From Acholoe squamosa (taxonomy: Eukaryota; Annelida; Polychaeta; Phyllodocida; Polynoidae), in the NCBI GenBank assembly GCA_949317995.1, contig OX439038.1, positions 75,278,659-75,342,658 of the forward strand: a DNA stretch of 64,000 nt. Reading direction: 5' to 3'. A program made the position numbers and the translations under genes. Shown here piece by piece: positions 20,341 to 61,628 of the stretch. How positions within the stretch are numbered: position 1 is the first letter of the stretch; each line of letters opens with the position of its first letter. The notes below the pieces were generated by a model. That model had not been told where the DNA came from and searched no databases. It worked only from the letters and a program-made list of their open reading frames with translations.

Positions 20341-22600
20341 AATAGTGAGTGACCTATATGATAAAGGCTATGACGTTTTTTGTAAGAAACTGCACTAAAC
20401 ACTTCTAGGTTATTAGAGAAATTTTGAGGAACACATTTCTGAAATATAGATTAATCTCCTTTAGAGTCCCATCCGCTAGATAAATCTTCATTTACAGCTT
20501 CTTTATAATTGTTCAATTATGAAGATGAACATCTGAAAATGTCCATCTAAATTAACATCAGAATGAAGCTGCTAAGTGCAGTCGTAATGGACAATTTCCT
20601 GGCTGATTTTGATGAGAGGAAGGTCTGTTAAAATTAGACTTGATAGACCTTGGATCTAAATGAATTTGAATCAAGATGAAGGCAGTTAACATGGAGCAAG
20701 CTCATCAAATTTAAGCATCGTTTTCAACTGCATAGGATTGATTCTCATGCACAGGAAACTTTCATGACATAGCTGTAGTGGATAGGACACTATAGCCTGA
20801 CACTGTGTCTCAATACTTAACTCAATCAAAATAAATTCATATCAATATCTTCACCTTTCAGTTGCCATGAATGTCATGACATCATGATACATTCACTGAA
20901 GCTAGTTCCCGATTCAACTAAAACCAGTGCTAGGAAATGATCATCTTGTATCATCACCCTAGGCACAAAGGTTGCTACTGCACTACTTTACAGTCTTGTT
21001 TCCGATTTCCTTGCACTAAGCCACCGATATGAAATCTTGAGTAGATAGCTCTAAACTCCAATTCCAAGAAGGTTATGACTCTAACATTGAAACTGCTTAA
21101 GAATAAGAGCCAGAGACAGATTCCTGGGCATGCACAGTGTCAGCTTCCTCCACCTCCCCCGGCAAACAGCTCATCATCTCGGGATGCCACATGGCTTTCT
21201 GAGAATTAAAAACAGCCTTGCAAGCCACCTATTGATGCAGGTAGGACATATTGACTCATGAATTATTTAGTATACTAATGGGCACTAAAAGGAAATGCTG
21301 GGGGGGCAAAGGCCTGCATATCAAACAGGCGTCAAACAGACAGACCTTCAGAGGGTTTATGGTTCCAACATAGTTAATGATTTGAGGCAACCTCCCTGTC
21401 ATGGTTATAATGATGACCAGAAGGCCTCAGCAGAGCACCAAGCACTGTATTGGTGCTGTTAGTCACAGCAATTACAACCTTTGAATACAGAATATCTTTC
21501 GGTTAATATATTTTATTGGAAAGTCTATGCACTCAGCCATCTGTTGTTTTCAGCTTTGAAGTTTAAAACTACATTTCTGCCCAGTAGATTGTTACCAGGA
21601 TGGTGTAATTAGCCATCACAATACATTATCTGGTCAGGATTATATGATGGCATAACAGAGGGGATATTTTCTCTTTTCCTATCTTTGCTATAATTGCATT
21701 CAATACTAATGATAAACCTACACAATTGACTCCATAGCATCCCCTAGGGGTTTTTTGACAGACATTTATTTTGACTATTCAACTATATATCTATTGTACT
21801 GACTTTGGTAGCAATACTGGGAAGAACTCAGATGGAACAAGAGTAATTTTGAAATAAGACAACAAAGGGGGAGGGGTTTTGTAAAATGGCTTTGATTAGT
21901 CATTTGCCTGTAAATAACAATGCTATTTTCCTTTGATGATAAAAGGAAGAACTTTTACCATATTTCCTGATTAGGATTATGTAAATGAGCAGAGTAGTGG
22001 TAGTTAATATTAGGGTTCATTTATGAAGCATGCCACTTATTCCACTTATTGATTCTTAGCAGTCATCCTAGCCTGACCATTCAATTTCTTTTCTTTATAC
22101 TGTATAAAAGAGTGTTGTCAAAATAACGGTAAAATCCTTGTCCCAATGTTCCCAGCGGTCGAGGCAACAATGGTTGGTATTTTTAGGGTTTCTTACATTT
22201 CCACCCACAGGCTGTACTGACACCAGTCCTTATCAATAACACAAATTTGTGTAACACAAACCTTGCATTGACTGTAATGTTATGCCATTTTGAAATAGCC
22301 TCCTCAGGTGGTGGCAAGTTTGGGGTTTTGTCTGCCCACCTTTTTCTCCTTTAATTATCTGTATCCTTGCCCTTGTCCTCTGTCTTCTTTTATGTGAACA
22401 ATGCATTTATGCCTTTCAGGTAAAAAAATCATCATGGCTTTATGATATGAGGTGACAAAGAACCTTAAAGAATCTGGTCAGTCAGAAAATACTTCCTTCA
22501 TACCAATATCATATTCCTGCATAGTAAAATTAAACATAGAAACACTGCATCAAAGATTGGATATTGCTGACTCATAATGGAACAATACATTTTCCACCAT
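20340..22600 (+). repeat. tandem module, zeta block (beta-related), copy 1
   Basis: Nearly the same as 54140-56580 throughout, with phrases such as CATGGAGCAAGCTCATCAAA near 20691, CAAGCACTGTATTGGTGCTG near 21438 and GTAATGTTATGCCATTTTGA near 22277. It is also a diverged relative of beta: ACTAAAACCAGTG near 20919, GGGCATGCACAGTGTCAGCT near 21127 and the block near 21930-22080 correspond in order to 15680, 15795 and 16500-16680. It is therefore an older duplicate of beta. No gene is seen. Confidence 0.8.
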
Positions 22601-25690: not shown

Positions 25691-26950
25691 AGAGAGAGTG
25701 CCAAAATAATGTGTCATTACAAAGACATCCTTTATAAGTTGGTAACAGAAGGGTACTTTGTCAAAACAAAATGATATATATAGTTGATTGGACAGATGTG
25801 AGTAATTGCTGTGGGGATATGGTCACAACATCTGTGAGTAGAATTTGTGATTGGCTGAGATTGTGCTCAGTGGAAGATAGAATCTGAGTCTATATATATT
25901 CATTCCCTATGTTGTATATGGTACCTTTTGCATAGATGAGCTCGGTTCTGTTGGACCAATGCTAAAAGGAATGTATTGGATGTGTCATGGTGAGCCACCA
26001 AAGGTTAGATTGTGGGGTCAGCTGGTGAAATGCTGTGATGAAATATTCAAGTTCTATTCATTCACAGATAGATCTGATCTGTCCTCTAATAACTAAGAAA
26101 ACAAGCACCATATTTTAATGATATCATTCAAATGTTATTTCATCTGCTGATTATTTCTAAGTTGCATGTCTGGTGTTGAACTTTGAAATATTGTCCTTCA
26201 AAATCCATTGATTCTTAGAATCGCTTTTTTCATTCTTTTCATTTAGAAAAAAAAAACTCCAATAAAAACAGAAAAATAAAGATTGTCATATATCTGACAA
26301 TTAAAATTCATACTTCATGACATTAACAGGATTCAAGAGATTCTGTACAAGAGCTAAAGGCTTTCAGCAGGGATACATATCCAGAAAAGAAAAATACAGA
26401 AATCCTAAACATTAAAAGGTTACAGCAAGAGAATCTCAGGTTGTGGTAGAGCCAACAGATTTGTGGAGTGAATGAACATGTAACACGATTGGACTAAATT
26501 TAACTTGATCTAATTCAGATGACAGTTATGAATAACTCAAATAGCTATCATGGACAGTAATAGTAAGTGTGGGTGACATGATAAGAAGTGGACCAAAAAA
26601 TGTAATGAAATGAATTGACTTTGATATGAAAACATTTCTGGTAAGTGTCCAGAAACAATCTGAGGCAATACAAAGGGAGATATTCTACATTAATTCAACT
26701 TTAAAAACCAAATTTTATGCCTCTTATCTCTGCCAGATAAGTTTATCGAAAGGATTGAATTACATAAAGGGGTCTTTTTGTTTATTATTTAACCATGATG
26801 CTATCACGAGAATGACTTCAAGGTGAGACAGAATAGAAAAAGGAAAAGAAATATCCACATTAATTAGTGTCCTAAGACAAGTGTGCTGGGAAACAAATGG
26901 ACTGAAAAGCCATCATCATGACTTTTGCTGAAGTGCTCTGATGTTAACTG
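25690..26950 (+). repeat. tandem module, alpha block, copy 2
   Basis: Paralogous to 12880-14830 without the inserted elements, so it is the empty-site reference for that copy. Landmarks are AAAGACATCCTTTATAAGTT near 25721, GATGAGCTCGGTTCTGTTGG near 25934 and AACCATGATGCTATCACGAG near 26792. No gene is seen. Confidence 0.78.
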
Positions 26951-27613
26951 TCAGGCATCCTTCATTTAGTTGCTTCAGACTGGGTCATGTTATTTTCACG
27001 CTGTGTAAGTCCACCACCCCCCCCCCCCCCATCCATAGTACAATGTGTGTAAAGTAGTATTTACTCTCAACATACCTTGCCCCTGGAAATGTTGTAAATT
27101 GATTGTTTCCAACAGCCATAATTCATACGCCACTGCCCATTATTGGCAATCGGTTCCCTACTGACTCCCTATATGTATGATATTTACACTGATGAAGGCT
27201 TTCTGAGCTATTTACTGTGCATTAAATAGGACTAGAGAGCATGTAAGGTTCTCAGTCCATATTGGTAGTGTTATTCAGGAGAAGGACCTGTTTTAATGAT
27301 GTTCCACTAAAATCTTCAACTTTATACTGCACTATTCCACTATGTTTTAACATTATGTTCAGCACTTTTTCTGAAAATAGGAGGAATCCATAAGAGGACT
27401 ATATAAGTTGTGATATATTTCGAGTGCATCAAGTTTTGTCCCTTACGTTAGTCCGAAAATCTGATGAATTTCATGCAAGGTTGATGGCTGTTGATTTGAA
27501 TAGAGAAATTAACCCCAACTCCCCCTGGTATGACTTGATGGAAGGTAAGCTTTGTTACAATCAATGTGGAGACATGTTGTCACAAATATATGCCAATATG
27601 TACTATTGTCTTC

Positions 27614-27615
<2 letters not shown>

Positions 27616-27662
<47 letters not shown>
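27616..27662. repeat. (TA)n microsatellite
   Basis: An almost pure TA dinucleotide run of about 47 bases, seen only in this beta copy. The isoleucine/tyrosine-repeat frames that cross it are artefacts. Confidence 0.97.
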
Positions 27663-27665
<3 letters not shown>

Positions 27666-28156
27666 GTTATAATCTATTTCTAAGCTCTGGATTATATTTT
27701 CCCAGTCACAGAGCAGGTCCCTACATCATTGCACACAAAGCGACATCTGTATTAGATTGAAAATGTGACTAGGAAGATGCATCTCTCACTCATACATGCA
27801 GACAGATGGTGAGGGCCTGATTCCATGGGTTTTCCATGGGATGGCAGAAACTAATTTTCTCCAGTTTGAATGAAATATGCTGGCCAACAATAATTAATCT
27901 GCAGATTATGAACTGACATTTTGACTGAATTCAATTTTTCATGGGGAAATGAAATACGCCGTGTATTGGGGGATGACATTACCAACATAAAGTGATTTCT
28001 GGTGTGTTCGGTACAGTAAAGCTGTTGCATCTTAGAAGGACATTGCAGTTTGGCCCGTAGCAATCTCCCTAGAAACCTCATACCATCATCTAAAGCTCTC
28101 CACTTGTGGTAGTCATTACTCTAATGGTTCAGTGAAATTGGACATTGAAATTCAGG

Positions 28157-29130
28157 TCTTTAGCTACATTTTGGTACTTTGCATGATGAAATACTCCAAA
28201 TACTATGGTCAGAGATATTTTCACGGAATTGGCAAAAAAAAAAAGATAGATTTACATTTATTTAAATTTGTGGCTTTATTTTAATCTAGACTCACAGGAC
28301 TTGGTTTATCTGTAGTGTATACCCGGTGTCATAGTACCAAAACCTCCCTGGTAAGGTCTATATACAGAGGCATAGACTGCCACGGACTCATATCACAGCC
28401 ATATGCATACAGATTGATTTTATTAGTAGCAAATGTTAAAATACATGAATTTGCTTGTCAAAGCAATCTAAAAAAGAAACAATAACGTTTGTAGTGATAG
28501 CTACATTGATAAATTTTAGAATGCACTTTGGTTCGGGTCTTGAATATGCACTGGTCTTGAATTAGCATCAGGGTCAGAGTCTACTTGAAATATATGAGCG
28601 CCCCGCCGCTTATACAGGCGAAAATATCTACAGCGCAAAATCAAGTACGACCACAGTAGCTACAGAAATATAATATCTCAACATAGGATGTCAGCAACAT
28701 GGAGAAATTCAGGATAGCCCCCAACTCAATTGCCTATTATTATATTGTGGCATAACATATAAAAAATGTCATTCTTGGAATTTTTAAACATAATTATCCA
28801 TAATTTTGGATCAAGAAGCAATTCTGTTTTCAGTTATAAAAACCTTATGGAGTGGTTGATAAGATAGAGAAACCTTCTATTAAAGAGGAATAAAATTATG
28901 GTTTCCATGGCAATATCAACAAATGTGCTAAATTTAGGGGAAAACATTCTTTTTGGATTCTAAATAAGGTCATTTTATAGGTAAATAGAGTCTTGGGTAT
29001 AGCATAATCAGATTCTTCAGAAAAGGTTACCCTTGACATGTTTTCACCTAATGTTTTACTCTTTTAGTCAATAACATATTTAGAATATTTGTGGGTATTT
29101 CCCTTAATGTCATGATTTTCCCGGTTTTGT
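28157..29130. other. copy-specific insertion, unassigned
   Basis: Beta copies 1 and 2 run directly from the GACATTGAAAT-like block to the AATAATTGTCCCAT block; here about 0.95 kb intervenes. It holds an A run at 28234-28244 and a short CpG-richer patch (GCGCCCCGCCGC near 28600). I found no coding region and no terminal repeats, so its nature is unknown. Confidence 0.5.
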
Positions 29131-30487
29131 CACAAATAATTGTCCCATCTGAGTCCTTGATAGAGATAGAGTCCTGAATTCCATTGCAACTTAGAGATTG
29201 TTTACGAGGTAAGAGTAAATCTTTGAGCATGCACAGTATCAACTCCCTACTTTGCCTAGAAAACTGTTAATCATCTCAAGTAAAGATATCACATGGCTGT
29301 AGGAGAATGTCCAATAATGTTCAGCCTTGCCTTGCCTGGTACCATTAGGAAGTATTGACACATACATTAATGAGTTTACTGTTGGACATTATGGTGAAGT
29401 ACTGGGGATAGGCAAGGGAGAATAATCAGTGAATTATATTGGATCTAAGGGTGACTTTCTGAGTGTAAAATTAAGCATCTGGTGTCTGAAGACCATTTTT
29501 CAATAATTTAGATATAACAGGTGCCAGATTCTCTAGAAACAGACCTTGGAAATGGTGATGGTGCCAACATATAACAGATAACAGCCTCAACTCAGCTTGC
29601 TGTCATGATTTTAATATTTGCCGGACAGCCTCCCTAGAGCATTCTGTTATGCAGTTAATTGGAAATATCAGTCTATTATTAGGAATTAAAACCGATTTTG
29701 TATAAGAAACTCTGTGTCTGCAATCAATCATCAGGTAATACAACCTCTGAATTTTATATGTTAAGTAAGACAATTCTCGGTTGCCTTACATTCTAAAGTA
29801 AAAGATGAACACAATTGGTGCCTCAGTAATAAAGGCATAAATAATAATTATTTCATGCGAGCAGTTCTGCAAACATTGCATCCCTCAAACTAGGTTTGAA
29901 TATCAGTAGCAAGAAAAAGGTCCCACACACCTGAATATATATTTCATAGTGGTGTTTGGTTATTTGCCAGTAAACATCAGCTAAGCCTGGCTGTTTATCA
30001 CCGTGCATGTTTTAAACTGCTGCAGGCGAGTTTAATCAACATCTCCTGCTAATTTTTCAGCAACCTTTTTCACAACTGTAGACAGACCTTTTTTTATTCA
30101 TTTAAAGGACATATAATCCACACTTTTCATTCATGAATCCTGATAATACAGAAGGATTTAAAGATCATCAGAAATATAATATCCGCCTGGGATGCCTATT
30201 CTTTGTACTCAGGATACTGCACCAGCAGGGATTAGTTCATTATCACATAGTGTGATTTCTACACTAATCAAGAAGGTGCAGTACAAGTAAGTTCGTCTTG
30301 AATTCCCATCACACCAGCAGATTTCATTATTGTGAAAGCAAAGGACAGCATAGTGATGGATGACAAATTTTTGCTTTCTCACTGTAATTATTCGGTATGC
30401 TGATGAGGAATGCTATTGAGATTAGTATTGACCAATTGATGATCCAAATTCATCTTTTTTTTAATGAGACTCAACTGCACCATGCAG

Positions 30488-30610
30488 ATTGTCAGATGCT
30501 GAATGGAAGAGAAGAATGTGCTCCAGGGTATGTCTTATGTGAGGAAGGCATTACAATGGGAGGAGGGCACAGTGCCTGGACCCCCGAACCTACTCACTGC
30601 CTTGTGAAAG
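30488..30610 (+). pseudogene. possible CCP/sushi-like exon, probably decayed
   Basis: The frame reads 'CQMLNGREECAPGYVLCEEG' followed by 'GHSAWTPEPTHCLVK', close to the sushi pattern (C..LNG..., C.PGY.L..., W...P..C). It is preceded by CATGCAG, a possible acceptor, and followed by AAAG|GTGTGT, a possible donor; the bounded piece is 123 bp and phase 1 on both sides, as is usual for sushi exons. Against this, the third cysteine is displaced, the domain would be short (41 codons against about 60), and the paralogues at 17190-17330 and 50690-50790 are broken. It may be a relic exon or chance. Confidence 0.25.
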
Positions 30611-32149
30611 GTGTGTACCAGGACCTAGTGCTGCCTGATAGATTATTCATTGAATTGATTGAATGATCATGAAGGAGCCTTTAAAAGGTAAGACAATACA
30701 TAGGCCAACATGTCTTGATTGAGATTTGACTCATTGATGGAAATGAGGATCCATGAGTTAAATGAGGATCTTTGATACATGACAGGTCAGTTTTAGATTA
30801 TCTGGATTGTAAAATAGTGCTCTTGTGATTTGCAATCTATATGAAGGCATGAGTACATGAGGAGATATGAGAGGTTACCTATGCAAAGCTGTATTTCAAT
30901 TTCATACAGGATTGTTAGATGAATGTCTGTTTGCATGCAGTGATAGCAAAAATAATTTACTATACTATTGTATGTGATGTCCAGGGAAAAAAATCAGCAG
31001 GTTTGTGTAAAAGTAAAAATAAAAAGAATATGGCTATGCTAGCATTCTCATCACTCATTTACTGGCACTCTCCAGAGTCAATTTAGGTAATAGGGCATTT
31101 AAATACTTGCCACGAAAAATGTGTCACCCTTCCTGCCATGCATTTACTACAGCTAATGCTGTGAGTGCCTTTTGACATGCCAAAGTCTGGTGTCGTTCCC
31201 TTTAGAGGTCATCTCACCAGCACTGATGTGAACACCTGCAGGGATGTAAAAATAGAAATCAAGCAGAAAATCTCCCAATCGAACTTAACCAACTGTTTAT
31301 TGGGTGTTTACTTAGATATATAATATGCACATGATTAAACACTATCAAAATCATAGATGAGGGAATTTGGCTTCATTTTCCCATCATTAATTTTTCTGTC
31401 TTCATACATGAGAGAAATCAGTGAATTTGAGTCATAGAATTCCTATGTAGAGTTCCTACCACAAGAATGAGGCCAATATCTGCCCTTAATGTAATTACCC
31501 TGAGAACTTTGGTAGAAATAACACTGCAAGCCTGTGACCAAGCATAACAGTGGAGAAATCCAACACCTATTTCATTTTAAGCAACTAATATATTTGAGGA
31601 CTTAAACATTGTGCAAGGCTTCATTTATTAGACCTGTTCCAAGTACCCAGACATTCTCATCATTGACTAACACCAACAACAACAAACTAAACACTCTGTT
31701 TGGATAGATTGCTACATTCATATCAAATTCCTGACTGTAAACAGCTTCCTATTATTAGCACGGTTGCCAGGCTGGAGCATTACTTTTTACATTCTGATGG
31801 ATTTCATCTCCTCCAGGTCTAATACTGTGCACAGTATAAGCTGTTTGCCTGACACAGATGCCTTGCACCTCAAGTATAGATCTACACCTATAAGGGCCAC
31901 ATGGTATGTTGTAAGTTATGTTCAGTTGTCTTTGTGATGTCCTTATGCAGCAATAGTATGTAATTCATTGCTGCTCCATCTATACAGAATAGGGTTGATA
32001 CTACTTGAGATGTCCTGAAGAGTTGGTATGGTACAATGTGTTGATGAGGATGTCCTCAAACATATGGCGATGCACCACTTATGATAAAACAGCATCAAAA
32101 TAAAAGCAAAAACAACTTTCAATAACTACTTTATTGACTCAATGTGTGC

Positions 32150-35485: not shown

Positions 35486-36305
35486 ACCTTGCCTATCTAT
35501 ATAATGTAACATGACAATGGACATGTTTTTCAGTGTAACAGTGGTAAAATTAATGTTGCCTCAGCTTTAACAGTTAAGAGACAAAATAAGTATATTCCTC
35601 ATCAATCAATAGATACGGATTTATGATAATTTGTATTATATGTGCATAAAATACATTTACCGACTGAAGTGCCATTTAGAGCCTACAAAGCAGATGCACT
35701 TTTAATTTGTGAATTCCTAATGCACATCATCCTTTTTTCTGTATTCATTTTCTCACACATAACATAAGAATGTTCAACTAATCTTGAGAATGCTTTTTAC
35801 CACTAAAGATGGCTTTCCTATAGTATGCTTATGCCCACTGAACTTGGCCGGAGAATCGATCACTCTACTGACCCCCACCCCCAACAAAGAGTTCACAAAG
35901 GTAAGAAATAAGGGGTATACAATATTTTGCATATCATTTCATATTTGCTATAGTGCACAGGAATGTCCCATGCACACATTGAAGAGGGGGGGGGGTCCGT
36001 ATGGTTTGGGTCTGTATGCATAGGAAGGAGGGGGTTGTTCAAATGCATACATGATCAAACTGATGATTTGTGACTATCATTATGGTGTTCATATGTCAGA
36101 TGTGGAAGACAGAAACTGGAATAAATACTTCCATTGACATGCAGACTAGGAGAGTAGGATTGTTTTGTTGCTATCTTTCAATATAATGCAAAACTTGTAG
36201 AGTAGTTTCAACTAATATGCTTGGCTTGCTAGTGCTCTTGGTGATGGTTTGGTGGTGGGTACTAACCTATCTTTTTTGTTTCAGGCAATAGCTCTAAACT
36301 GAACA

Positions 36306-38192
36306 ATGTCTACTAGATACTGCATACTGCATTTTCCATCCAAGAACAATGCTGATAGACAAGGGCTTATAAAAGCATGTGACCAACAAACCTTTGAAAA
36401 AATCAAGTTGGCTGATCAGAAGAGAAGGTCTTACTTGAAGCAATCAAAGTATTTTAGTATCAAATTACCAGAGTACTTAGATGAAAATATGGGATACCAT
36501 GTCAAATGCCTTAAAGACTTCACTGCTATTCCAAAAGATGGAGGTGACAAGAGAATTAAGAAAAATGTACAACAGAAACCAAAATTAAGGTCAAATGTGA
36601 CACATACTACTCAAAATAGCTCTGGTGTGTTTAGACCTGTTTGCATATTCTGTAACCATTACAGGAAAACTAAGAAGGGTAATGTTGAATATCCTGGGAG
36701 TTGTGAAACTGATACAGCTGAAAAAACAATAAAAAGTGCTGCTCTCAAGCTTAGTCATCTTGATATATCATCTAAGATTAGTGGCATTGATATGAAATCA
36801 AAAGAGGTGAAATATCACCATTCTTGCAAGCGAGATTTTCTGAATAAAGCACAGGATGGCAAAAAGAAGTCTGAAAAAATGATCAATCATGAAAATGCTT
36901 TTAGCGAACTCAAAACATACATTCAGGCAGAAATCATTGATAGTCCTAGTAGCATGCTACTAACCACCATTCATGAAAAGTACATCACAATGTTAGGGGA
37001 GTCAACATATTCTGCTGACAGCCTCTGTGCTAAGATATTAAAAGAGTATGGGGATGAAATACAAAAGCACACAGTAGGCCAAAAGAAAGGTGTTATATTG
37101 TATAGTTCAAAACTGACTGCTGATGAGGCAAAGAAACTAGTGTTTTTTGACCACAGCTCTCTGTTTGAGACAGCTGTATTTCTCCGTAGACAGATACTTA
37201 ATATGAAGGAGTGCGGCAAAGAACACATGAATGAATTCTCTGAAGAGGCTCTTGAAAGAAATAGGGAAACTATTCCAAAAGATCTTGAAAGCTTTTTCAC
37301 AATTCTCTACACAGGTAAGGCAACACTTCCTGGTCATGAGAAATCTGTCAGGCTGGTGAAATCAGTCTGTGATGATGTCATATACTGTGCAACAGGAGGG
37401 CGAGTCAAACCCATGAAACATGTAATAATGGGACTTGGTATGAAGAGCATTACAGGTTCAAGAAAGGTAGTTGAAATTCTGAATCGATATGGACATAGTA
37501 TCAGCTATCATTTGGTAGAGGAGAAAGAAACAGAGATAGCTACCGAGATAATGGAGAGAAAACTAGTAACTCCAGATGGAATTAAAAGGAAGGGAGGAAA
37601 GAGTACATCTTTAGCATGGGACAACTATGACGAAATGAATCAAACACTCTCAGGGAAAAACACCCTGCATGACACAGTTGGGATATGCTATCAGAATATC
37701 TGCAATGATCAAGATGAAAAACAAACAGAACCACAGGACACAGACACACAAAGTCAATCTCTGCATACACCTTCCCCCTCATCGAACAGTGATATCAAGG
37801 TTTCAAAGAGAACATTCCATTTCAAGGAGAAACATTTGGAGCCATACAAAAAGAAACCAAAGATAAAAACATTTCAGTATAATGTGAAGTATCTGCCACC
37901 TCCTCCAAATATCACAAGGATAAAGTACCTTGACCACCTATGGGTATTGTCAACTCTAGTGGCAAAGGCCCCCATGTGGGTTGGGTGGAATTCTAGACTT
38001 GCTATTGACAGTCTCCCACTTCACACCATAGCCTACATGGAAAACATCACATTACCACCCACAAGGTTAGATGTTGTTTTGGAAACAATGAAAATATCCC
38101 AAAAGGTAGCAGCGGAATGTGGACAGAACATTGCTGTTGTCCACTATGACCTCGCCATCGCTAAACCCAGCCATGCAGATCCAAGCTTCTGA
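36306..38192 (+). pseudogene. Academ-like transposase, N-terminal part with zinc-finger region
   Basis: Starts at the ATG at 36306, just after a pyrimidine-rich stretch ending in CAG (36284) that could be an intron acceptor. Residues about 109-177 form a Cys/His cluster ('VCIFCNHYRK', 'GSCETDTAEKTIKSAAL', 'YHHSCKRDF') of CxxC...C...HHxxC type, a likely DNA-binding finger. The middle contains 'YCATGGRVKPMKHVIMGLGM', a conserved block of this transposon protein family. Near residue 610 the frame slips: 'VVHYDLAIAK' is followed by 'PSHADPSF' and a stop, while the expected continuation lies in another frame. Confidence 0.82.
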
Positions 38193-38369
38193 AACACCAA
38201 AGTATGATAATTTATTCATCTGCTTTGGTCCTTTCCATATACTCCTGGCCTACTTTGGTGCATTGGGCTATTACTTGGATGGTTCAGGGGGAGAGGACAT
38301 TCTGGTAGAAGCAGAGGTACTGGCCAATGGCTCTCTACAGGGATTCCTTAAAGGCAAGCACTACAACCG
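38164..38369 (+). pseudogene. Academ-like transposase, part after first frameshift
   Basis: Picks up in a new frame right after 'DLAIAK' and reads 'AMQIQASETPKYDNLFICFG', 'FHILLAYFGALGYYLDGSGG' and 'GFLKGKHYNR'. The join lies at 38162-38166, where one extra base (or a loss of two) explains the shift. The last complete codon is followed by CG|GTAGGT, a good splice donor, and the frame would otherwise stop at once, so an intron begins here. Confidence 0.8.
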
Positions 38370-38564
38370 GTAGGTGCTTTCTTTTGACTATATATATAAT
38401 ATTAGTGCTGAAGATATTTGCACATGACCATATCATAAAATGAGATATAATTGATAAATTTCACTTGTAGAAAGTTCTTATATTTCAATTTTCGAAGAAT
38501 AAACACCCACAAATATGTATTTTACCAATATCCACATATCTAATACAGGTATGGTTCCTTCCAG
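38370..38564 (+). other. intron inside the transposase gene
   Basis: Donor GTAGGT at 38370 and acceptor TTCCAG ending at 38564 bound 195 bp. Splicing joins 'GKHYN', the split codon CG|G for arginine, and 'CKRIHPLLAAAMQTLHF', keeping one frame with a smooth protein. The interior is AT-rich with stops in the relevant frame. An upstream AG at 38547-38548 is a less suitable acceptor because it leads into a TAA. Confidence 0.72.
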
Positions 38565-39402
38565 GTGTAAAAGGATCCATCCACTCCTGGCAGCAGCAAT
38601 GCAGACTCTGCATTTCAAGCAGTTTCTGACTGAGAAAGGGACTCTTCCACCGAGGTTAGTAGACATCATCCATGAGTTAAATGACAATGGAAGCCCTGAG
38701 ACATTAGAAAAACTAGAGAATGATGAGGTCTACATAATGTTCATGAATGATTATGAGCAGTATGCTTCCCAGACACTCGATGGTGTGCATGGGAGCACGG
38801 TGAAGTATTGGATGATCTACATTCAGTTAGTTCACACATACCTTGTATTCAGCCGAGCCTGCCGCACAAACGACTACAACTTGTTTGTACATGGACTAGG
38901 AGAAATGTGCCAGCATTTCTTTGCTGGTAACCGACCAAATTACGCAAGGTGGATGGTCCGCTATCATCTAAATCTTCTGAACATTGATGAAAGCCATTCA
39001 GAGGCCCGAGAGATGCTTGAAAATGGAGCACTGTCAATCAGGAGGACTGAAAAGCACTTCTCCAGGACAGCAGTGGACATGACACTAGACCAGACAGTGA
39101 ATAAAGATGCAGCCTCAAGGCTCACTGGGATTTCAGCCTTTTCTCTGTCACCTTCTACACGCACCAAATGGACTGTGACCAAGACAGCACGCAGTGCAAT
39201 AGTTGGCTGTCTCTTATCTGGAGCTGGATTGCTTAAGCATGAGGATATTACATCCGAGCTAAAGCCACAGAGGATAGCAAAAGACAATGAGGACCTGCAA
39301 AGGCTCATTACACAGATTTGTGATTCTATGAACCCTTTTGCACTTCCACCGAACCTGCCCTCTACAGTCTGTCCACAGGTAAAGAAGTACCAGAGGATAT
39401 AA
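38565..39402 (+). pseudogene. Academ-like transposase, central part
   Basis: Follows the intron and contains the best conserved transposase blocks of the element: 'CKRIHPLLAAAMQTLHFKQF', 'LDGVHGSTVKYWMIYIQLVH', 'HFFAGNRPNYARWMVRYHL', 'ALSIRRTEKHFSRTAVDMTL' and 'DQTVNKDAASRLTGI'. Aspartates and glutamates in these blocks are candidates for the catalytic acids, but I cannot assign a DDE triad by eye. The frame is lost near 39350: the expected continuation '...LYSLSTGKEV' is in another frame, so the last residues before the stop at 39402 are not genuine. Confidence 0.82.
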
Positions 39403-41090
39403 GGCAGGATCTCATGGAGTGGAATGAGAAGGGCAAAAAGTGGCTGGAAGATTTTCGGGAAGGGTGCTTTAGTGACCCTGAGAGATTTGAGAAACCAATC
39501 CCTAGTAAAAAAATCAAAAATTTTGCGAGTGCAGCGGTTAAAGTAAAGGTCACTTCCAAGGATGCCAAGATAAAAGAACTGGCAGGAACAAGGGACCTGT
39601 TTGGCAACCTACTGTACCTCAGCAGCAAAGAGGATCTTGATCTTGAGAAAGTGTTTGAGTATCCTCTAACTCCTGTTCCACTTTCACTTGGTTCTGTAGA
39701 TGGCACTATGAATGCAACAAACAAAGCTATGTTGCAGCACAGGATTGAGGAAATTGCTCCTTGTATATCAAGATTTGGAGAGAGTGATGTCATGCTGGTT
39801 GATGCATCATTCTTTCTTTACCAAATTGTAAATCCACCTATCACTTATGGGGAGGTTGCAAAGGATATTCTCACAAGGTTGTGCCAAATGTCTCCCACTG
39901 TGCATTTCATCACAGATCAGTATGAAGTTGTACCCACTATCAAAGACACTACTTGAGCAAAGAGACATCAGAATGAGAAGCAATCTAGCACATCTGTTCA
40001 AATAACTGGCCCAAAGCAGCAGACAAAGGAATGGAAGTCAGTAATCAAATCTGGTGCCTTCAAAACATCATTTGTTAAGTTCCTGCTCAAGGAGTGGGCA
40101 AAAGAATCCTATCTACAAATCCTGGATGGACACTCTGTGTATTTGACTTGTCAGAATGAATGCTTCAAGTTCAGTGTCAAAGATGGAGCCATCATCAGGG
40201 AAAGAATAATTGAGCTAGAATGCTCTCACATAGAGGCAGATACAAGGATAATGTTTCATATGACACATTGCATTGGGCACAATGGACAGGCAGAAATTGT
40301 GGTTAGAGCAAATGATACAGACATATTTGTTTTGCTGCTATATCATTTGTACCACATCTACAAGACACATGCTCTAAAGGCCAAAGTCTGGCTAGATGTG
40401 GGATTATCTAGCAATAACACAAGAAGGTGCATCAGCATCACAGAAATGGTAGATAAACTTGATGGTGATGTCATAAGTGCACTACCAGGGTTGCATGCCA
40501 TGACGGGAAGTGACTACACTCCAGCATTCAGTCACAAAGGGAAAGTGAGGCCACTGAACCTTATGATGAAAAACAAAGCACACACTGACACATTCTCAAA
40601 GCTTGGGGAAGATAATGTAAATCTTGTAGATCTCACACCTGAACTTGAGCCATGGGTCTGTGCATTGTATGGAAAACCAAAGTTCCAGTCTGTAAACAAG
40701 GCAAGACTAGCGATATTTGAAACAAAGTATGCACCCAAAAACAAAGGTGACCTCCTTCAACTCGCAAAAGGGGCAAATCCGAGTAATTTTCCATCAAGTA
40801 AAGCAACATTGGAGAAACAGGTCGAAAGGGCCAATCTTGTAGCTTCAACATGGAAAAGAGCCTGGCATCCAAATCCTCTAATACTGGACCCAGCACAAAA
40901 TGGATGGGAATTGAATGATGGTCACTATGATATAAACTGGTTTGATTGTGCTCAATTCCCCAAATCAATCAAGGACATCCTTCTGAAAACCCCACTTGAG
41001 GATGAAGACCTTGAGGAAGAAGAAGAGATGGCATATGGGGAGAACAGATATGGAAGGGATGAATCAGATGGAGAGGCAGATGAAGAATGA
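39345..41090 (+). pseudogene. XPG/FEN-like nuclease region of the transposon protein
   Basis: One frame from about 39345 to the stop at 41090, interrupted only by a TGA at 39954-39956, probably a decayed arginine codon (CGA to TGA). It reads 'DVMLVDASFFLYQ', like the XPG N-region start, then 'CSHIEADTRIMFH' (XPG-I 'EAEA'-type acids), 'VVRANDTDIFVLLLYHLYH' (the 'SDDSDVFLFG'-type aspartates) and 'LHAMTGSDYTPAFSHKGK' (like the GSDYT.G..G helix-hairpin region). The order matches XPG/FEN1 nucleases of the PIN-like fold. The C-terminus is an acidic tail ('LEEEEEMAYGENRYGRDESD'). It presumably processes DNA flaps or nicks during transposition. Confidence 0.78.
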
Positions 41091-44411: not shown

Positions 44412-45002
44412 ATACCAACTCTTGTTTTCTTATCTTTCAGGTAAGTAGCTGTTACCCCTACCTCTGTGGCATGTTAAGGTAGGTGATAGCTATACAGCAT
44501 TTGATGTGCTTGGCCAGCTAAACTACAGGTTCCTTAAAATCTCAGGTCTCATAGAAACCCAGTGGACTTACCATTCAGTGGGGGAGATTACCTTGAACAC
44601 ACTATAGTGTACAGGCTACAGTACGACTAGACACAGCAAATCTGACTCAGAAAAACTCCAGTCATCATACTGATTTGAATTTAATGTGCACAGGGGCGAA
44701 AATGAAAATATACTGATCTCCATGGAAGTACAACTGGAGACATAAGTATTACTCTGTACAAGTAGGCTGTACTTTAATTACACAGGAGGCATCTGGTTTC
44801 ATTCAAATAGCTCCACTTTTTGTTTGTTGAGAAATACCATTGAGGAGGGAATTTCCTAATATTCTATTTGACATTATTGAGAAATATGCTCCAGACAGAT
44901 ACTATGAGGCCATTTATGAAGGAAGAGTATTAGTGAAACAAGAAGAACGTGGCAAGGACCACATATGGGAGTTGCCGCTTCCTGTCTATTTACCTTTACC
45001 TG
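44412..45002. other. unassigned interval
   Basis: Contains a good polypyrimidine-AG (TTCTTATCTTTCAG ending near 44441). No reading frame with a known motif was found. A weak likeness to 24740-24830 suggests diverged module sequence at 44830-44930. Confidence 0.35.
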
Positions 45003-45724
45003 GAGCTTAATTCAAAACATCCTGGGATGTGTAGGCACATATCATTAGACCTGGCCGGTCTACCCTATCTAATGCAGTGGTTGCAGGCCTGTCAAAAATA
45101 GCAAGTCCTGGGATCACTTTACTATTCCTTTTCCAGCACTAAGATCACTGCGATCATAGTGAAAGAATTGCAGAGTGGTTTCACCTGAGTACAAGAGCAC
45201 TTACAGGGAACACTCCTGATCGAAAGAGTGAATTGCCTGCTGCATACATATAGAGGGGAGGGAGGATGTTTGCTGAGTGTCCTTGAGGGCTCTTAGGGCT
45301 ACTCATGCATTAAGTGCACTGTAAGGTCATTCTTCCCTTCTCTCTCTTTGTCTTGGGGGGCACAATGCTTCTAATAGGCAAGCATAAATCATACACTCAT
45401 GGGAACAACTCTTGAATACTGTACGGGGGTCAACTGCACCCTGTGCTCTTTTGTTAGCCCATATGGGGACGGGGAACGATGGTATAAACACTATTGTGAA
45501 GAAGAGTGACTCCACAGCTATTCCTTTATTTTGAAACTCTTACCCCTGTGCCCAGTCAGTACTCCTTGGAATAGTGTAGGAGGGCTGAGGCTAAGATCGC
45601 TACGATCTTAGTGCTGGCTAGGAAATGTGAACGCAGTCTAATCTTAAGATCGTTTAATAGGATAAGGTAGAATAATTCCTAAGATCACTGAGGTTTCGAT
45701 CCCAGGATGTTTTGAATTAACCTC
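45003..45724 (+). mobile_element. palindrome-rich MITE, copy a
   Basis: A 722-bp non-autonomous element whose ends are inverted repeats (GAGCTTAATTCAAAACATCC at the left; complement GAGGTTAATTCAAAACATCC at the right). Near both ends it carries short near-palindromes of the form CTAAGATC-n-GATCTTAG (45143-45167, 45592-45612 and similar). Flanking triplets are CTG and CAG. The short frames inside, repeated in the other copies, show no protein motif. Confidence 0.8.
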
Positions 45725-45844
45725 CAGAATCCATTGTGACTCTCAAATACATCAGGTTATGAAGTCGCAGGGGTCGTCTGACGTCACATGAACAGACAAG
45801 GAAACCATAAAAGTGTTGCAAAGGTTGCTACAAACCAAAACAAC

Positions 45845-52158: not shown

Positions 52159-53443
52159 TGGCCAGGTGAGGGAAAACATGCCTCCTGGGGGAAAATGGAT
52201 TTTTAACGTTTAAGTCATGGGCTTTAAAATGAGATATCTTGAGCTAAAATATCCCTGGTAGTTTTGCTGTAATTGCTTGTCAAACATATTAGGTTGGTGT
52301 GTTCAACTGAAAATGGGAAATAAGCTCAAAATGCACTTTATCCTATCATAAACACTAATGATGCAAAAATTGCAGTTTTGTGGAAAAATAACCAAAGGAA
52401 TGTGAGGTATTTGTCATAAAATTGTTTCTACAGGGAATCTTTGAGCTCTGTTTTCGGTTCTGGGTTCCTGAGAATTTTTTTAAAAAGCTTGTGGCAAAAA
52501 GTCCCAATTGGAAAAAGTTGCCTTATCTACCAATTTTCTATGTTTCCATGGCAATCAAAGTTCCAAAAATGGAACATTTTCATTGAAGATGGAATGATTT
52601 TAAGCATACCTCTGGATTCCTTATAGCATATTTGTCAGTGTTTTACCCAGCAGGACGCAACTTCTCGACCCGGACTATGCCCCCGGGGCATTCACGCGCT
52701 GCTCTACGCGTGACAGCAGTCCCTGCTGTGCTGTGCTGTGCTGTGTCAGATTGTAACTCTGGTGTGAGTTTCTAAGGAAAGGCCCCGGGGGCATTCTCGG
52801 GCCAGTGATGCCCCTGGGGCATACTTTAGTTGTTTCTTGTGTAGGAGTAACAAAAATGCCCTGGGGGCATTGATGGAATTGCTGATGCCCCCAGGGCATG
52901 CCATTGTAGATTTCAGATTATAGAAGAAAGGCTATGCCCCGGGTTAATTTGTGGTGTGTGTGATGCCCCCGGGACATAATAGTATTCAGTCTATAATATA
53001 GAAGTAAATGCTATGCCCTGGGGGCATCATCACACATCATCCATATTATGGATGCCCCAGGGGCATGGTACAGAGAACAATGGGGGACAATGCCCTCAGG
53101 GCATTCATAGTAAGGATAATCATACATGCATAAAAAAAATTGACGATGCCCTGGGGGCATCCATGTACTAAACGATGCCCCCAGGGCATAGTCCAATACC
53201 CTATATAGGCCTACATGTCCTGGGAGCATCATCCTTACCATGGATGCCCTGGGGGCATTTTCCCAGACTTGCCATGGGGAGTGTGGGAAAGGGCACGCCT
53301 CAGCCACTGCTGTCCGCGTAATTTTCGCATCACTCCCACGCGGCAGTCTGTAGGCCCCGGGGGCATAGTCCAGGTCAAGAAGTTGTGTCCTGCGTTTTAC
53401 CCATATACTGTCCCCCGGAGGTGCGTTCTCCCCCGTTAGGCCA
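52159..53443. mobile_element. outer inverted-repeat element, carrying the palindrome array
   Basis: Inserted in epsilon. The ends are inverted repeats starting TGGCC, with CCTCC-GGGG-rich inner parts (left 52159-52195, right 53411-53443). The flanks are TAATTG and CAATTG, a probable 6-bp duplication with one change; the paralogue near 19598 shows the undisturbed TAATTGCTCTG. About 490 bp of AT-rich interior (52196-52639) precede a second, inner element. No recognisable protein is encoded. Confidence 0.65.
52650..53393. mobile_element. inner element: array of about 15 ATGCCCC/GGGGCAT palindromes
   Basis: A 744-bp element with inverted ends (GCAGGACGCAACTTCT inward; right end GTGTCCTGC) flanked by the perfect 10-bp direct repeat GTTTTACCCA (52640-52649 and 53394-53403). 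Between the ends, about 15 copies of a GC-rich palindrome (ATGCCCC-n-GGGGCAT and close variants such as ATGCCCTGGGGGCAT) recur at irregular 15-70-bp spacing. A 9-11-bp duplication is typical of Mutator-like elements. The proline/glycine-rich frames that cross it reflect the palindrome, not a gene. Confidence 0.85.
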
Positions 53444-54140
53444 CAATTGCTCTGGGGATAACACAGAATTCATGGTTAATTTCCTGTAATATCAATCAAA
53501 ATATTGTCCCAGACAGGGATTATCACAATTATGTTTATCATGATTAGTTTTGATAATAAACATGATCCTTTAATTACATGAATGTTTGAGATTCTGCCTT
53601 TGAATTATCTAGATGTAGAAAAAGGGAATAAAATAGGGTTGCATTGTTTGGACAATGATGACAGAGTATAGTAATGTTTATCTGAAGATTGCTGACACAT
53701 TTTCCTATGGGACAGATTTTATTTTAACTTATTTTTGTCATATATATCAATGTCATTCTCTGACATCCACCATTTGGAAAGTTTTGAGTAGGAATAATGA
53801 ACACACTGATCAACAGCTTAATCACTGAGCCTCTGCCTTCAGTCAGAGCTTGAGTCAAGATGACATTGTGAGTATCTACCTGATAACCCCAAAGTAAAGA
53901 GATAGTGCGCTGTGTCAGGAGACATCACAGCTCTAGTGAACCTTCCATGCCTTTACTGTTGGCATATTTACCAGAGCCTTTCTCATAGTGACTGGATACT
54001 GAACCCAAAATTATGGGCACTGTAAAGTTGGGAAGAGAACAGAGAATAGTGCTAAAGCCTCCATATCTAAAGACTTAAACACAACTTGAATTTGGATGGG
54101 TACATGTATTAATCAGTGTGTAAAAGCAGCACAAATTGAA
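53444..54140 (+). repeat. tandem module, epsilon block, copy 4, right part
   Basis: Continues the epsilon copy, close to 19605-20340 throughout, including GGAGACATCACAGCTCTAG near 53919. No gene is seen. Confidence 0.8.
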
Positions 54141-56580
54141 AACCTTTGAGGAATAGTGTTGACCTATATGATAAAGGCTATGACGTGTTTTGTAAGAAAC
54201 TGCACTAAACACTTCTAGGTTTCTGACATTATAAGAGAAATTTTGAGGAACACATTTCTAAAATATGGATTTATCTCCTGTAAGAAGACCCACCCACTAG
54301 ATAAATCTTCATTTATAGCTTCTTAATAATTGTTCAATTATGAAGATGAACATCTGAAAATCTTCATCTAAATTAACATCAGAATGAAGCTGCTAAGTGC
54401 AGTTGTAATGGACAACTCTCCTGAATTTCCTGGCTGATTTTGATGAGAGGAACATCTGTTAAAATTAGATTTAATAGACCTTGGATCTAAATGAATTTGA
54501 ATCGAGTTGAAGGCAGTTAACATGGAGCAAGCTCATCAAATTTAAGCATCGTTTTCAACTGCTTATGATTGATTCTTATGCATAGGAAACTTTCATGACA
54601 TAGCTGTAGTGGATAAGACACTATAGTCTGACACTGTGTCTCAATACTGAGTTAAATCAAAATAAATTCATATCGATATCTTCACCTTTCAGTTGCCATG
54701 AAAGTCATGATATCATGATACATTCACTGAAGCTAGTTCCTGATTCAACTAAAACCAGTTCTAGGAAATGATCATCTTGTACCATCACCCTAATGCACTA
54801 CTTTACGGTCTTGTTTCTGGTTTCCTTGCACTAAGCCACCGATATGAGATCTTGAGTAGATAGCTCAAGCTCCAATTCCAAGAAGGTTATTACTCTAACA
54901 TTGAAACTGCTTAAGAATAAGAGCCAGAGACAGATTCTTGGGCATGCACAGTGTCAGCTCTCTCCACCTCCCCCCTGCAAACTGCTCATTATCTTGGGAT
55001 GCCACATGGCTTTCTGAGAGTTAATAACAGCCTTGCCAGCCATGTTTTGATGCATTTAGAACATATTGACACGTGAATTAATTAGTATACTAATGGGCAC
55101 TAAAAGGAAATGCTAGGGGGAGCAAAGGGACCAAAATCAGGGAGACTTTGGATCAGGGGTTCTTTACCAGACCAAATGAGGCCAACTATGGTCAGACCCA
55201 AGGTACTGAAGTTGATCAATATATATAACCTGCATGTATAGTTCTAGGGAGAAGGCTGGTGTTCTGCCTGCATATCAAAGAGGTGTCGAACAGACAGACC
55301 TTCAGAGGGTTTATGGTTCCAACATAGTAAATGATTTCAAGCAACCTCCCTGTCATGGTTATAATGATGACCAGAAGGCCTCAGCAGAGCACCAAGCACT
55401 CACTGTATTGGTGCTGTGAGTCACAGCAATTACAACCTTTGAATACAGAATATCTTTTGATTAATATTTTTATTGGGAAGTCTATGCACTCAGCCATCTG
55501 TTGTTTCCAGCTATGAAGTTTAGAACTACATTTACTGCCCAGTACATTGGTACCAGGATGGTGTAATTAGCCATCAAAATACATTATCTGGTCAGGATTA
55601 TATTATGGCATAACAGAGGGGATATCTTCTCTTTCCTATCTTTACTATAATTGCATTCAATACTAAATGATAACCCTAAAGTAGGGTGTGTAACCTACAC
55701 AATGCATCGCATAAGTTCATTTTAACAGAATTTTATTTTGACTATTCAACTATATCTATTGTACTGACTTTGGTAACAATACTGGGATGAACTCAGATAG
55801 AACAAGAGTAATTTTGAAATAAGAAAACAAAGGGGGAGGGGTTATGTAAAATGGCTTTGATTAGTTATTTGCCTGTAAGTAACAATGCTATTTTCCTTTG
55901 ATGATAAAAGGAAAACCTTTACTGTATTTCCTGATTAGGATTATGTAAATGAGCAGAGTAGTGGTAGTAAATATTAGGGTTCATTTATGGAGCATGCCAC
56001 TTATTGATTCTAAGCTGTCATCCTAGCCTGACCATTCACTTTCTTTTTTTTCAAAACTGGTGAGATGGGTTTTAATCGATATCTCACCCTGGCTTGTCAG
56101 CATCATTCCCAACCCCACTCACACTGTATAAAAAAGTGTTGTCAAAATAACGGTAAAATCCTTGTCCAAATATTCCTAGAGATCCAGGAAACAACAGTCG
56201 GTATTTTTAGGGTTTCTTACATTTCTACCCACAGGCTGTACTGACACCAGTCCTTATCAATACCACAAATTTGTGTAACACAAACCTTGCATTGGGTGTA
56301 ATGTTACGCCATTTTGAAATAGCCTCCGCAGGTAATGGCAAGTTTGGGGTTTTGTCTTCCCACCTTTTTCTCCTTTAATTATCTATGTCCTTGCCCTTGT
56401 CCTTTGTCTTCTTTTATGTGAACAAGGTATTTGTGCCTTTCAGGTAAAAATCATCATGGCTTTATGATATGAGGCGACAAAGAGCCTTAAAGAATCTGGT
56501 CAGTCAGAAAATACTTCCTTCATACCAATATGATATCCCTGCATAGTAGAATTAAACATAGAAACACATCATCAAAGATT
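54140..56580 (+). repeat. tandem module, zeta block (beta-related), copy 2
   Basis: Almost collinear with 20340-22600, differing by substitutions and short indels. It ends with CATCAAAGATTGGA, matching the sequence near 22551, exactly where the palindrome-rich MITE begins. No gene is seen. Confidence 0.82.
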
Positions 56581-56581
56581 G

Positions 56582-57312
56582 GAGCTTAATTCAAAACATC
56601 CTGGGATCCTAACCCCGGCGATCTTAGTGTAGGCACATATCATAAGACCTGACTGGTCTACCCTATGTAATGCAGTGGTTGCAGGCCTGTCCAGAATAGC
56701 TAGTCCTGGGATCACTTCACTATTCCATTTCCACCACTAAGATCACTGCGATCTTAGTGAAAGAAATGCATAGTGGTTTCACCTGAGTACAAGAGCACTT
56801 ACAGGGAACACTCCTGATCGAAAGAGTGAATAGCCTGCTGCATACATAAAGAGGGGAGGGAGGACGTTTGCTGAGTGTCCTTGAGGGCTCTTAGGGCTAC
56901 TCATGCGTTAAGTGCACTGTAAGGTAATTCTTCCCTTCTCTCTCTTTGTCCTGGGGGGAGGGCACAATGCTTCTCATACATTCATGGGAACAACTCTTGA
57001 ATACTGTACGGGGGTCAACTGCACCCTGTGCTCTTTTGTTAGCCCATATGGGGACTGGGAAAGATGGTATAAGCACTCTTGTGAAGAAGAGTGACTCCAC
57101 AGCTATTCCTTTATTTTGGGACTCTTACCCCTGTGCCTAGTCAGTTCTTCTTGGTAAAAGTGTAGGAGGGCTGAGGCTAAGATCGATGCGATCTTAGTGC
57201 TGGCTAGGATATATGTGAACCCAGTCAACTCTTAAGATCGCTTAATAGGATAAGGCTGATTTATTCCTAAGATCGCTGGGGTCGTGATCCTAGAATGTTT
57301 TGAATTAAGCTC
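56582..57312 (+). mobile_element. palindrome-rich MITE, copy b
   Basis: A full copy of the family seen at 45003, with the CTAAGATCACTGCGATCTTAG palindrome near 56743 and its relative near 57177. Flanking triplets are TTG and CAA. It is joined directly to an inverted partial copy on its right. Confidence 0.85.
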
Positions 57313-57547
57313 CAAGAGTGTTCCCTGTTAGTGCTCTTGTACTCAGGTGAAACCACTATGCATTTCTTTCACTAAGATCGCAGTGATCTTAGTGCTGGAA
57401 AAGGAATAGTGAAGTGATCCCAGGACTTGCTATTCTTGACAGGCCTGCAACCACTGCATTAGATAGGGTAGACCGGCCAGGTCTTATGATATGTGCCTAT
57501 ACTAAGATTGCTGGGGTTGCGATCCCAGGATGTTTTGAATTAAGCTC
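57313..57547 (-). mobile_element. palindrome-rich MITE, inverted partial copy
   Basis: Complement of the first 240 bp or so of the family, ending in TTTTGAATTAAGCTC at 57547. It lies head-on against copy b, so copy b probably inserted into it and the rest of the older copy was lost. Confidence 0.8.
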
Positions 57548-60333: not shown

Positions 60334-61628
60334 GAGGTTAATTCAAAACATCCTGGGATCGCAAACTCAGCGATCTTAGGAATTATTCTACCTTATCCTA
60401 TTAAGCGATCTTAAGATTAGACTGCTTTCACATTTCCTAGCCAGCACTAAGATTGCATCGATCTTAGCCTCAGCCCTCCTACACTATTCCAAGAATTACT
60501 GACTGGGTACAGGAGCTTAATTCAAAAGATCCTGGGATCCCAACCCCAGCGATCTTAGTGTAGGCACATATCATAAGACCTGACTGGTCTACCCTATGTA
60601 ATGCAGTGGTTGTAGGCCTGTCCAGAAGAGCTAGTCCTGGGATCACTTCACTATTCCATTTCCACCACTAAGATCACTGCGATCTTAGTGAAAGAAATGC
60701 ATAGTGGTTTCACCAGGGTACAAGAGCACTTACAGGGAACACTCCTGATTGAAAGAGTGAATAGCCTGCTGCATACATAAAGAGGGGAGGGAGGACGTTT
60801 GCTGAGTGTCCTTGAGGGCTCTTAGGGCTACTCATGCGTTAAGTGCACTGTAAGGTAATTCTTCCCTTCTCTCTCTTTGTCCTGGGGGGAGGGCACAATG
60901 CTTCTAATAGGCAAGCATAAATCATACATTCATGGGAACAACTCTTAAATACTGTATGGGGGTCAACTGCACCCTGTGCTCTTTTGTTAGCCCATATGGA
61001 GACGGGGAACGATGGTATAAGCACTCTTGTGAAGAAGAGTGACTCCACAGCTATTCCTTTATTTTGGGACTCTTACCCCTGTGCCTAGTCAGTACTTCTT
61101 GGAATAGTGTAGGAGGGCTGAGGCTAAGATCGATGCGATCTTAGTGCTGGCTAGGATATGTGAACCCAGTCAACTCTTAAGATCACTTAATAGGATAAGG
61201 CTGATTTATTCCTAAGATCGCTGGGGTCGTGATCCCAGGATCTTTTGAATTAAGCTCCAGGGGTCAGAGTCCCAAAATAAAGGAATAGCTGTGCACTTAA
61301 CGCATGAGTAGCCCTAAGAGCCCTCAAGGACACTCAACAAATGTCCTCCCTCCCGTCTATATATGTATACAGCAGGCTATTCACTCTTTCGATCAGGAGT
61401 GTTCCCTGTAAGTGCTCTTGTACTCAGGTGAAACCACTATGCAATTCTTTCACTAAGATCGCAGTGATCTTAGTGCTGGAAAAGGAATAGTGAAGTGATC
61501 ACAGGACTTGCTATTCCTGACAGGCCTGCAACCACTGCATTAGATAGGGTAGACCGGCCAGGTCTTATGATATCAGCCTACACTAAGATCGCTGGGGTTG
61601 TGATCCCAGGATGTTTTGAATTAAGCTC
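60334..61628 (-). mobile_element. palindrome-rich MITE, inverted copy split by copy c
   Basis: An opposite-strand copy present as 60334-60509 and 61261-61628, with CAG on both outer flanks (60331-60333, 61629-61631). Putting the two pieces together across the internal insertion makes a collinear family member apart from a deletion, so this is the older, host copy of the nest. Confidence 0.85.
60513..61257 (+). mobile_element. palindrome-rich MITE, copy c, nested
   Basis: A full 745-bp copy inserted into the inverted one. CAG occurs directly before (60510-60512) and after (61258-61260); the same triplet is single in the intact sequence at that place in other copies, so it is a 3-bp duplication. 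The copy is very similar to copy b (56582-57312). Confidence 0.88.

Follow-up and report, generated by a model that had tools for sequence, protein, structure and literature searches.

A palindrome-bearing element nested in a non-coding insertion

The DNA analyzed here is a stretch of 64,000 nucleotides, hereafter called the window, which carries a 744-bp element with inverted ends (Table 1). The terminal inverted repeats (TIRs) comprise 45 bp each (52650-52694 / 53349-53393) and are 89% complementary, and both are directly abutted by a perfect 10-bp direct repeat, GTTTTACCCA, as was described in the initial annotation of this DNA. The statement that the region is AT-rich holds for 2 kb of the flanks (36% GC), but not for the element itself (53% GC; 45% for the spacers alone).

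Within the element are 15 palindromes of 15 bp that conform to the pattern ATGCCC(YNR)GGGCAT, one of which resides in each inverted end, 27 bp in from the tip. A search for ATGCCCYNRGGGCAT with at most one mismatch yields 13 matches in the 64 kb, all of which fall within the element, compared to 0.02 for shuffled sequences. This difference rules out a chance origin and agrees with the array of about 15 GC-rich palindromes noticed at the outset. When up to three mismatches are permitted, there are 22 matches in the window, 15 of them in the element, compared to 6.5 expected. A simple satellite in the window is likewise ruled out, as the only matches outside the element carry three mismatches and occur at chance level. 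Among internal palindromes, the 15 palindrome columns average a pairwise identity of 0.87, a value that arises partly by construction because sites were chosen for similarity, versus 0.27 and 0.28 for the flanks (0.26 expected).

Table 1. Features of the palindrome element in the window
Feature	Position	Strand	Remarks
Left target-site duplication, GTTTTACCCA	52640..52649	.	10 bp
Non-autonomous MULE element, whole	52650..53393	+	744 bp; family consensus 739 bp
Left 42-bp family end	52650..52691	+	27-bp tip + palindrome 1
Palindrome 1, ATGCCCCCGGGGCAT	52677..52691	.	Within TIR
Palindrome 2	52780..52794	.	
Palindrome 3	52808..52822	.	
Palindrome 4	52856..52870	.	
Palindrome 5	52885..52899	.	
Palindrome 6	52934..52948	.	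3 mismatches in window copy; family consensus intact
Palindrome 7	52963..52977	.	
Palindrome 8	53013..53027	.	
Palindrome 9	53052..53066	.	
Palindrome 10	53090..53104	.	
Palindrome 11	53146..53160	.	
Palindrome 12	53175..53189	.	Right flank repeats TIR flank AGTCC
Palindrome 13	53215..53229	.	2 mismatches vs pattern
Palindrome 14	53244..53258	.	
Palindrome 15	53352..53366	.	Within right TIR
Right 42-bp family end	53352..53393	-	27-bp tip + palindrome 15; 4 differences vs left end in window copy
Right target-site duplication, GTTTTACCCA	53394..53403	.	10 bp

The spacing of the palindromes, which had been called irregular, is not so. The 12 inner spacings measure 28/29 bp (five), 38-40 bp (three), 48-50 bp (three) and 56 bp (one), and they concentrate at a period of 10 (R = 0.82; P = 0.0006, corrected for scanning periods). 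This signal weakens when possibly duplicated spacings are removed (P = 0.003-0.03) or when one spacing of 29 bp is kept and compared to a jitter null (P = 0.007). The five spacers of 13/14 bp exhibit weak mutual similarity (P = 0.003), and therefore the 29-bp spacing may be inherited; both tandem and inverted duplications are present inside the short element. A mirror layout of the palindromes about the center of the element (P = 0.0014 when all spacings are permuted) was not relied upon, given that P is only 0.014 when the inner spacings alone are permuted. Loss of one central CpG from ATGCCCCCGGGGCAT would suffice to produce most palindrome variants in the window copy. CpG decay after insertion was withdrawn as their source because the family consensus already carries these variants. 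CpG is strongly depleted across the entire window (positions 1-64000; o/e 0.25; TpG/CpA 1.3), which suggests that the germline of this invertebrate host may be heavily methylated.

The element is contained in an outer non-coding insertion (52159-53444) with TIR-like GTGGCC ends and AATT/AATTG on both sides. This outer insertion has no counterpart in a duplicated segment of the window, where 19471-19612 runs on into 19608 onward, whereas 52158 and 53445 are 1286 bp apart. The duplicated segment thus provides an empty site of the outer insertion, but not of the palindrome element. Long segmental duplications are present elsewhere in the window at 81-95% identity, with some other pieces inverted: 13816-17521 / 25929-30835, 19608-22561 / 53445-56583, and a set of three copies at 45001-45726 / 56580-57314 / 60512-61259. 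Long open frames at 36303-41090 belong to an unnamed element, and one of these has a weak match to DUF6589 that is below cut-off. Searches with Rfam (gathering scores) and ARAGORN gave no matches.

A homogeneous family of short copies

The source genome (1.48 Gb, 63 contigs) was searched for relatives of the window element. Of 615 first-look candidates, 40 were scored, including the window copy, and every one is full length at 96-100% identity. Thirty copies were aligned to yield a 739-bp consensus that retains all 15 palindromes; 29 of these are 99.2-100% identical to this consensus, and the window copy is 98.3% identical. Searching with a 30-nt tip pattern that has Y at three positions gives 226 matches (114 + 112), whereas the reversed-pattern control gives none. 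Many copies with the same ends exist in the genome, and the proposal that this is a mobile element is supported. Among about 100 tip places listed of the 226, the distances between neighboring tips are 739 bp, 1.1-5.9 kb and, in two instances, about 25-26 kb.

Palindrome arrays are found in every copy counted when at most three mismatches are allowed, with 14-15 palindromes in each of 41 short copies and 15-56 in each of 26 middle-sized copies (1.1-5.9 kb), as well as in the two copies of approximately 25 kb. The 713 spacings over the first 20 middle-sized copies are most commonly 29 bp (198), 50 bp (58), 28 bp (41) and 48 bp (40). A search of viral contigs gave no match to the palindrome-pair pattern or the tip, and the eight matches to a 20-mer, none of which carries an exact ATGCCCYNRGGGCAT, approximate the number expected by chance (an estimate). 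One bacterial match with two palindromes (L001) was judged by eye to be a short tandem repeat and was taken as unrelated. Elsewhere, a palindrome element carries a nested insert of 3 kb (L057:2214-5224), Crypton-like in appearance, whose tyrosine-recombinase frame matches DUF3504 (4.9e-21) and Phage_integrase (3.2e-11).

Coding relatives of approximately 25 kb

Two large copies with the same ends, C5 (25,413 bp) and C3 (26,259 bp), carry 89 and 108 palindromes, respectively. They reside at different genomic sites, each with a perfect 9-bp duplication, and long stretches of their three pieces are 99.8-99.97% identical. A MULE transposase (DDE) domain, PF10551, is split over two exons in these copies; the joined peptides score 4e-9, which is above the curated cut-off and rests on guessed splice sites, and a single exon alone scores 7.3e-5, which is below it. 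Two OTU-protease half-domains (1.6e-4, below the curated cut-off, and 3.8e-5, above it) and matches to ZSWIM1-3 domains are also present. The initial annotation proposed to look for an autonomous relative with the same ends; a larger coding relative with these ends exists, with MULE and OTU exons, and we presume that the approximately 25-kb copies are the autonomous members.

From these data, we conclude that the window element is a non-autonomous, MITE-like derivative of a family of Mutator-like (MULE) DNA transposons. The copies are short, non-coding, bounded by TIRs, high in number and homogeneous (the 30 aligned copies are 98.3-100% identical to the consensus), which are the attributes of MITEs. 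With regard to MULE membership, a MULE transposase is present in an element with the same ends, and the target duplications fall in the range of 8-10 bp, with 9 bp usual for the family and the 10 bp of the window copy unusual. TIRs longer than 100 bp, which are typical but not universal in MULEs (excerpts of PMC5225508 list two of 14 Aedes families with TIRs <60 bp), are not found here, as 42 bp are common to all end classes examined. The shared ends and target duplications suggest that the window element was moved by the MULE transposase.

The arrays of the 25-kb copies are interior rather than subterminal: inward from the left end, the first internal palindrome is reached after about 4.4 kb. 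Some 28 palindromes are placed between the two OTU open frames or at their edges, and a second array lies directly upstream of a MULE exon. The arrays consist of ~79-bp tandem units (palindrome, 14 bp, palindrome, about 35 bp). The same array has 16 palindromes in one copy (L066:398-1112) and 35 in the other (L069:419-1954), which explains most of the size difference between C5 and C3, and because the surrounding sequence is 99.8-99.97% identical, it appears to be a fast-changing minisatellite. Sharing of the array with a simple satellite, which the initial annotation named as a refutation, is thus found in part and in an unexpected form, since tandem units do occur in the large relatives, but they do so inside the element.

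Among homologous units, only some comparisons show greater likeness among palindromes than among spacers. Unit identities for the two palindromes (A/B) and the 14-/35-bp spacers are 0.84, 0.93 and 0.83, 0.75 in array 1; 0.76, 0.95 and 0.78, 0.86 in array 2; and 0.97, 1.00 and 0.89, 0.95 in array 3. In 19 units with distinct spacers, the spacer lengths (13-14 and 33-38 bp) are nevertheless kept.

A palindrome common to all transposon end classes examined

The first 42 bp are common, with 0-4 differences, to all six end classes examined and to one further copy that has a 3-bp insertion. This shared segment consists of the tip (27 bp) and, directly after it, one palindrome of 15 bp (bases 28-42). 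In the 25-kb copies, the match between the left and right ends spans exactly 42 bp; certain other end classes resemble one another as far as about base 57-62, and more than the palindrome may therefore be partly kept. No other inner sequence is shared by all the mobile members examined, and for this reason we consider the palindrome a candidate transposase site. Maize MURA binds a region of the TIR that would include the position of the palindrome.

The family and its ends, the coding relatives, and the arrays of all members counted are established by these data, whereas we infer both which protein binds the palindrome and that this binding benefits movement. Specifically, because all end classes share the 42 bp that include it, the palindrome is probably a binding site for a transposase dimer. 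We assign a probability of roughly 60% to the reading that the window holds a short MULE-family element in which the end palindrome is the inner transposase-dimer site and the internal palindromes are reiterations of it. A dimer would bind the inner part of each 42-bp end, and the internal palindromes, mostly 29 and about 50 bp apart, would repeat this site such that the array recruits many transposase dimers and thereby favors the capture and pairing of ends. Such an advantage could explain why the non-coding members are largely palindrome array. Putative binding of a dimeric protein, as suggested at the outset, is the best reading of the array.

Several observations run counter to the dimer-site reading. 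Among these are the selection of sites by similarity, the resemblance of some end classes beyond base 42 and the lack of TIRs over 100 bp. Another is the interior position of the arrays in the 25-kb copies, which favors an enhancer or a minisatellite over subterminal sites. A further one is that palindromes have changed no less than spacers since the recent burst, as evident by 14 non-CpG changes at 215 palindrome sites versus 34 at 476 spacer sites (29 copies), and so there is no sign of recent selection on the palindromes.

This last result would be expected if the arrays have no function and are a palindromic minisatellite that hitch-hikes in a MULE, growing and shrinking by unequal exchange. 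The ~79-bp tandem units, the array-length difference that largely distinguishes the two 25-kb copies, the tandem and inverted duplications within the short element, and the weak residual similarity of its 14-bp spacers are all in accord with this proposal. However, a functionless array does not account for the presence of the same motif at bases 28-42 of all end classes, for the persistence of palindromes and spacer lengths where the spacers are unrelated, or for the many palindromes kept in all copies counted, and we consider this explanation unlikely.

Alternatively, the palindromes might be sites for host AP-2 (TFAP2), a predicted cluster of which could open chromatin or drive transposase expression in cells that express AP-2, such as germ cells or ectoderm; the arrays of the large copies, between or beside coding exons, would then be intronic enhancers. 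Excerpts of the AP-2 literature give the consensus as GCCN3GGC, GCCN4GGC, GCCN3/4GGG or SCCYSRGGS (PMC5392957), and also as GCCN3-5GGC (PMC9877354). SCCYSRGGS begins at 15 places in the element compared to two in the rest of the window, and other sampled 744-bp stretches hold at most one. Of 848 palindromes chosen by their arms alone (23 loci of related copies), 818 have YNR as the center triplet, and the host has one TF_AP-2 locus with five exon matches above cut-off. GCCN5GGC matches 12 of the 15 window palindromes, but an in-register SCCYSRGGS is present in only 10. The fit to AP-2 is good but incomplete: the ATG/CAT arms go unexplained by any published consensus found, as does the retention of the palindrome as part of the 42-bp transposon end, and so we regard a role for AP-2 as improbable. 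A longer AP-2 motif from HT-SELEX exists, and its strings gave no match in the open-access literature.

Comparison with other transposons

Among known elements, the closest parallels are with MULEs such as Muta1 of Aedes aegypti, which has reiterated subterminal repeats (excerpts of PMC5225508). The family described here resembles these in its MULE transposase, its target duplications of 8-10 bp, its reiterated short end motif and its non-autonomous derivatives that share ends. It differs in that only 42 bp are common to all ends, that the motif is a 15-bp GC palindrome found also inside the 25-kb copies, and that OTU exons and target-site scars (see below) are present.

Other superfamilies offer partial likenesses, each of them drawn from excerpts of the reports cited. 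Galileo carries multiple sites for its THAP transposase, which its authors propose to form higher-order synaptic complexes (PMC3688188), and it shares with our family, as do Foldback-type elements, multiple (here putative) transposase sites in internally repetitive ends. However, Galileo belongs to the P superfamily, whereas the coding relative here is a MULE. The palindromic motif in the ends of piggyBac is bound by two CRDs of a transposase dimer (PMC11707139), in which it resembles the putative dimer site described here; piggyBac differs in its TTAA target, its one or few palindromes and its transposase. Hermes has BED sites, with multiple transposase sites in its ends (PMC10368747).

Exact strings of the palindrome or the tip gave no match in the open-access literature, and in the same literature, mostly listings, we found no description of a MULE with arrays of up to about 100 GC palindromes, including between coding exons. 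Excerpts of PMC3688188 describe a binding-site role of the Foldback and Phantom repeats as untested. A MULE family with a single palindrome that is both in every end class and repeated up to about 100 times would offer a clean natural setting for a similar question, namely whether movement is aided or impeded by reiterated transposase sites.

Target-site scars five nucleotides outside the ends

Target duplications were compared for 69 copies with both flanks, and one duplicated site was dropped to leave 68 sites. Perfect 9-bp duplications are present at 28 of these; 29 carry one to three mismatches, and 11 are strongly imperfect, a class that includes the window copy by virtue of its perfect 10 bp. 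Mismatches concentrate at positions 3-4 and 6-7 of the duplication, each pair being 6-7 nt away from one end of the element, left or right. The GC that begins the tip is found exactly 5 nt outside an end at 32 of the 68 sites, as compared to a background of 5.6% per side, from which about 11% of copies are expected to have it at one side by chance. Its distribution is uneven: among perfect duplications, two of 28 carry it, compared to 24 of the 29 with one to three mismatches and six of the 11 that are strongly imperfect (Fisher 4e-9 for the first two classes). In sites with one to four mismatches, 36 sides differ from their partner at outward bases 6-7, and 30 of these read GC; by our own count they represent 26 sites, such that the GC differs from the other duplication copy at 26/68. 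A target-site preference is ruled out as the cause by the scarcity of GC among perfect duplications and its prevalence on differing sides. Random mutation of the duplications is unlikely, since short copies are about 99.6% identical to the consensus.

When all 136 flanks were compared to the tip (GCAGGAC) across spacers of 0-15 nt, only a spacer of 5 stood out, with at least two matching nucleotides in 38 flanks (3-11 at other spacers), at least three in 19 (1-4) and at least four in 10 (0-3). The intervening 5 nt match the partner duplication at all but 13 of 155 positions, and four copies that bear a scar on each side account for 12 of these 13 (own count). Many sites thus read as a tip, 5 nt of target, and the start of a tip. 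Among short copies, the scar GC is present in 20 of 40, and among middle-sized ones in 12 of 26; neither 25-kb copy has it.

We interpret these scars, tentatively and at somewhat less than even odds, as fossils of transposition in which a MULE joins one end 5 nt outside the other on the same strand at the resident site, in a figure-eight or circle of the kind used in IS256-like copy-out, with the arrays serving to pair the ends. In this figure-eight or circle scheme, the 3′ strand of one end would be joined 5 nt outside the other end; in a hairpin scheme, it would be joined to the opposite strand outside its own end. The joined strand would then be cut off to leave about 2-4 nt of tip in place of target bases. 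Because both ends are identical over the scar length, the circle and hairpin models predict the same scar. The scar might also derive from a polymerase or a quasi-palindrome, yet its constant distance of 5 nt points to the geometry of a transposase. No integrated end-end junction was found in the genome (both exact 12-nt tips, 0-25 nt apart), a result that does not refute copy-out given that such junctions need not integrate.

IS256-type elements form circles, and the junction within such a circle would read end-spacer-end, resembling the scar. The DDE transposase of these elements is related to that of MULEs (excerpts of PMC5225508). IS256 is bacterial, however, and here the only traces are scars of about 2-4 nt, with neither a circle nor an integrated junction seen. 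It is possible that the scars provide new evidence on how eukaryotic MULEs move. The question of whether these relatives of bacterial IS256 pass through an end-to-end joined intermediate becomes testable from sequence alone through the scars.
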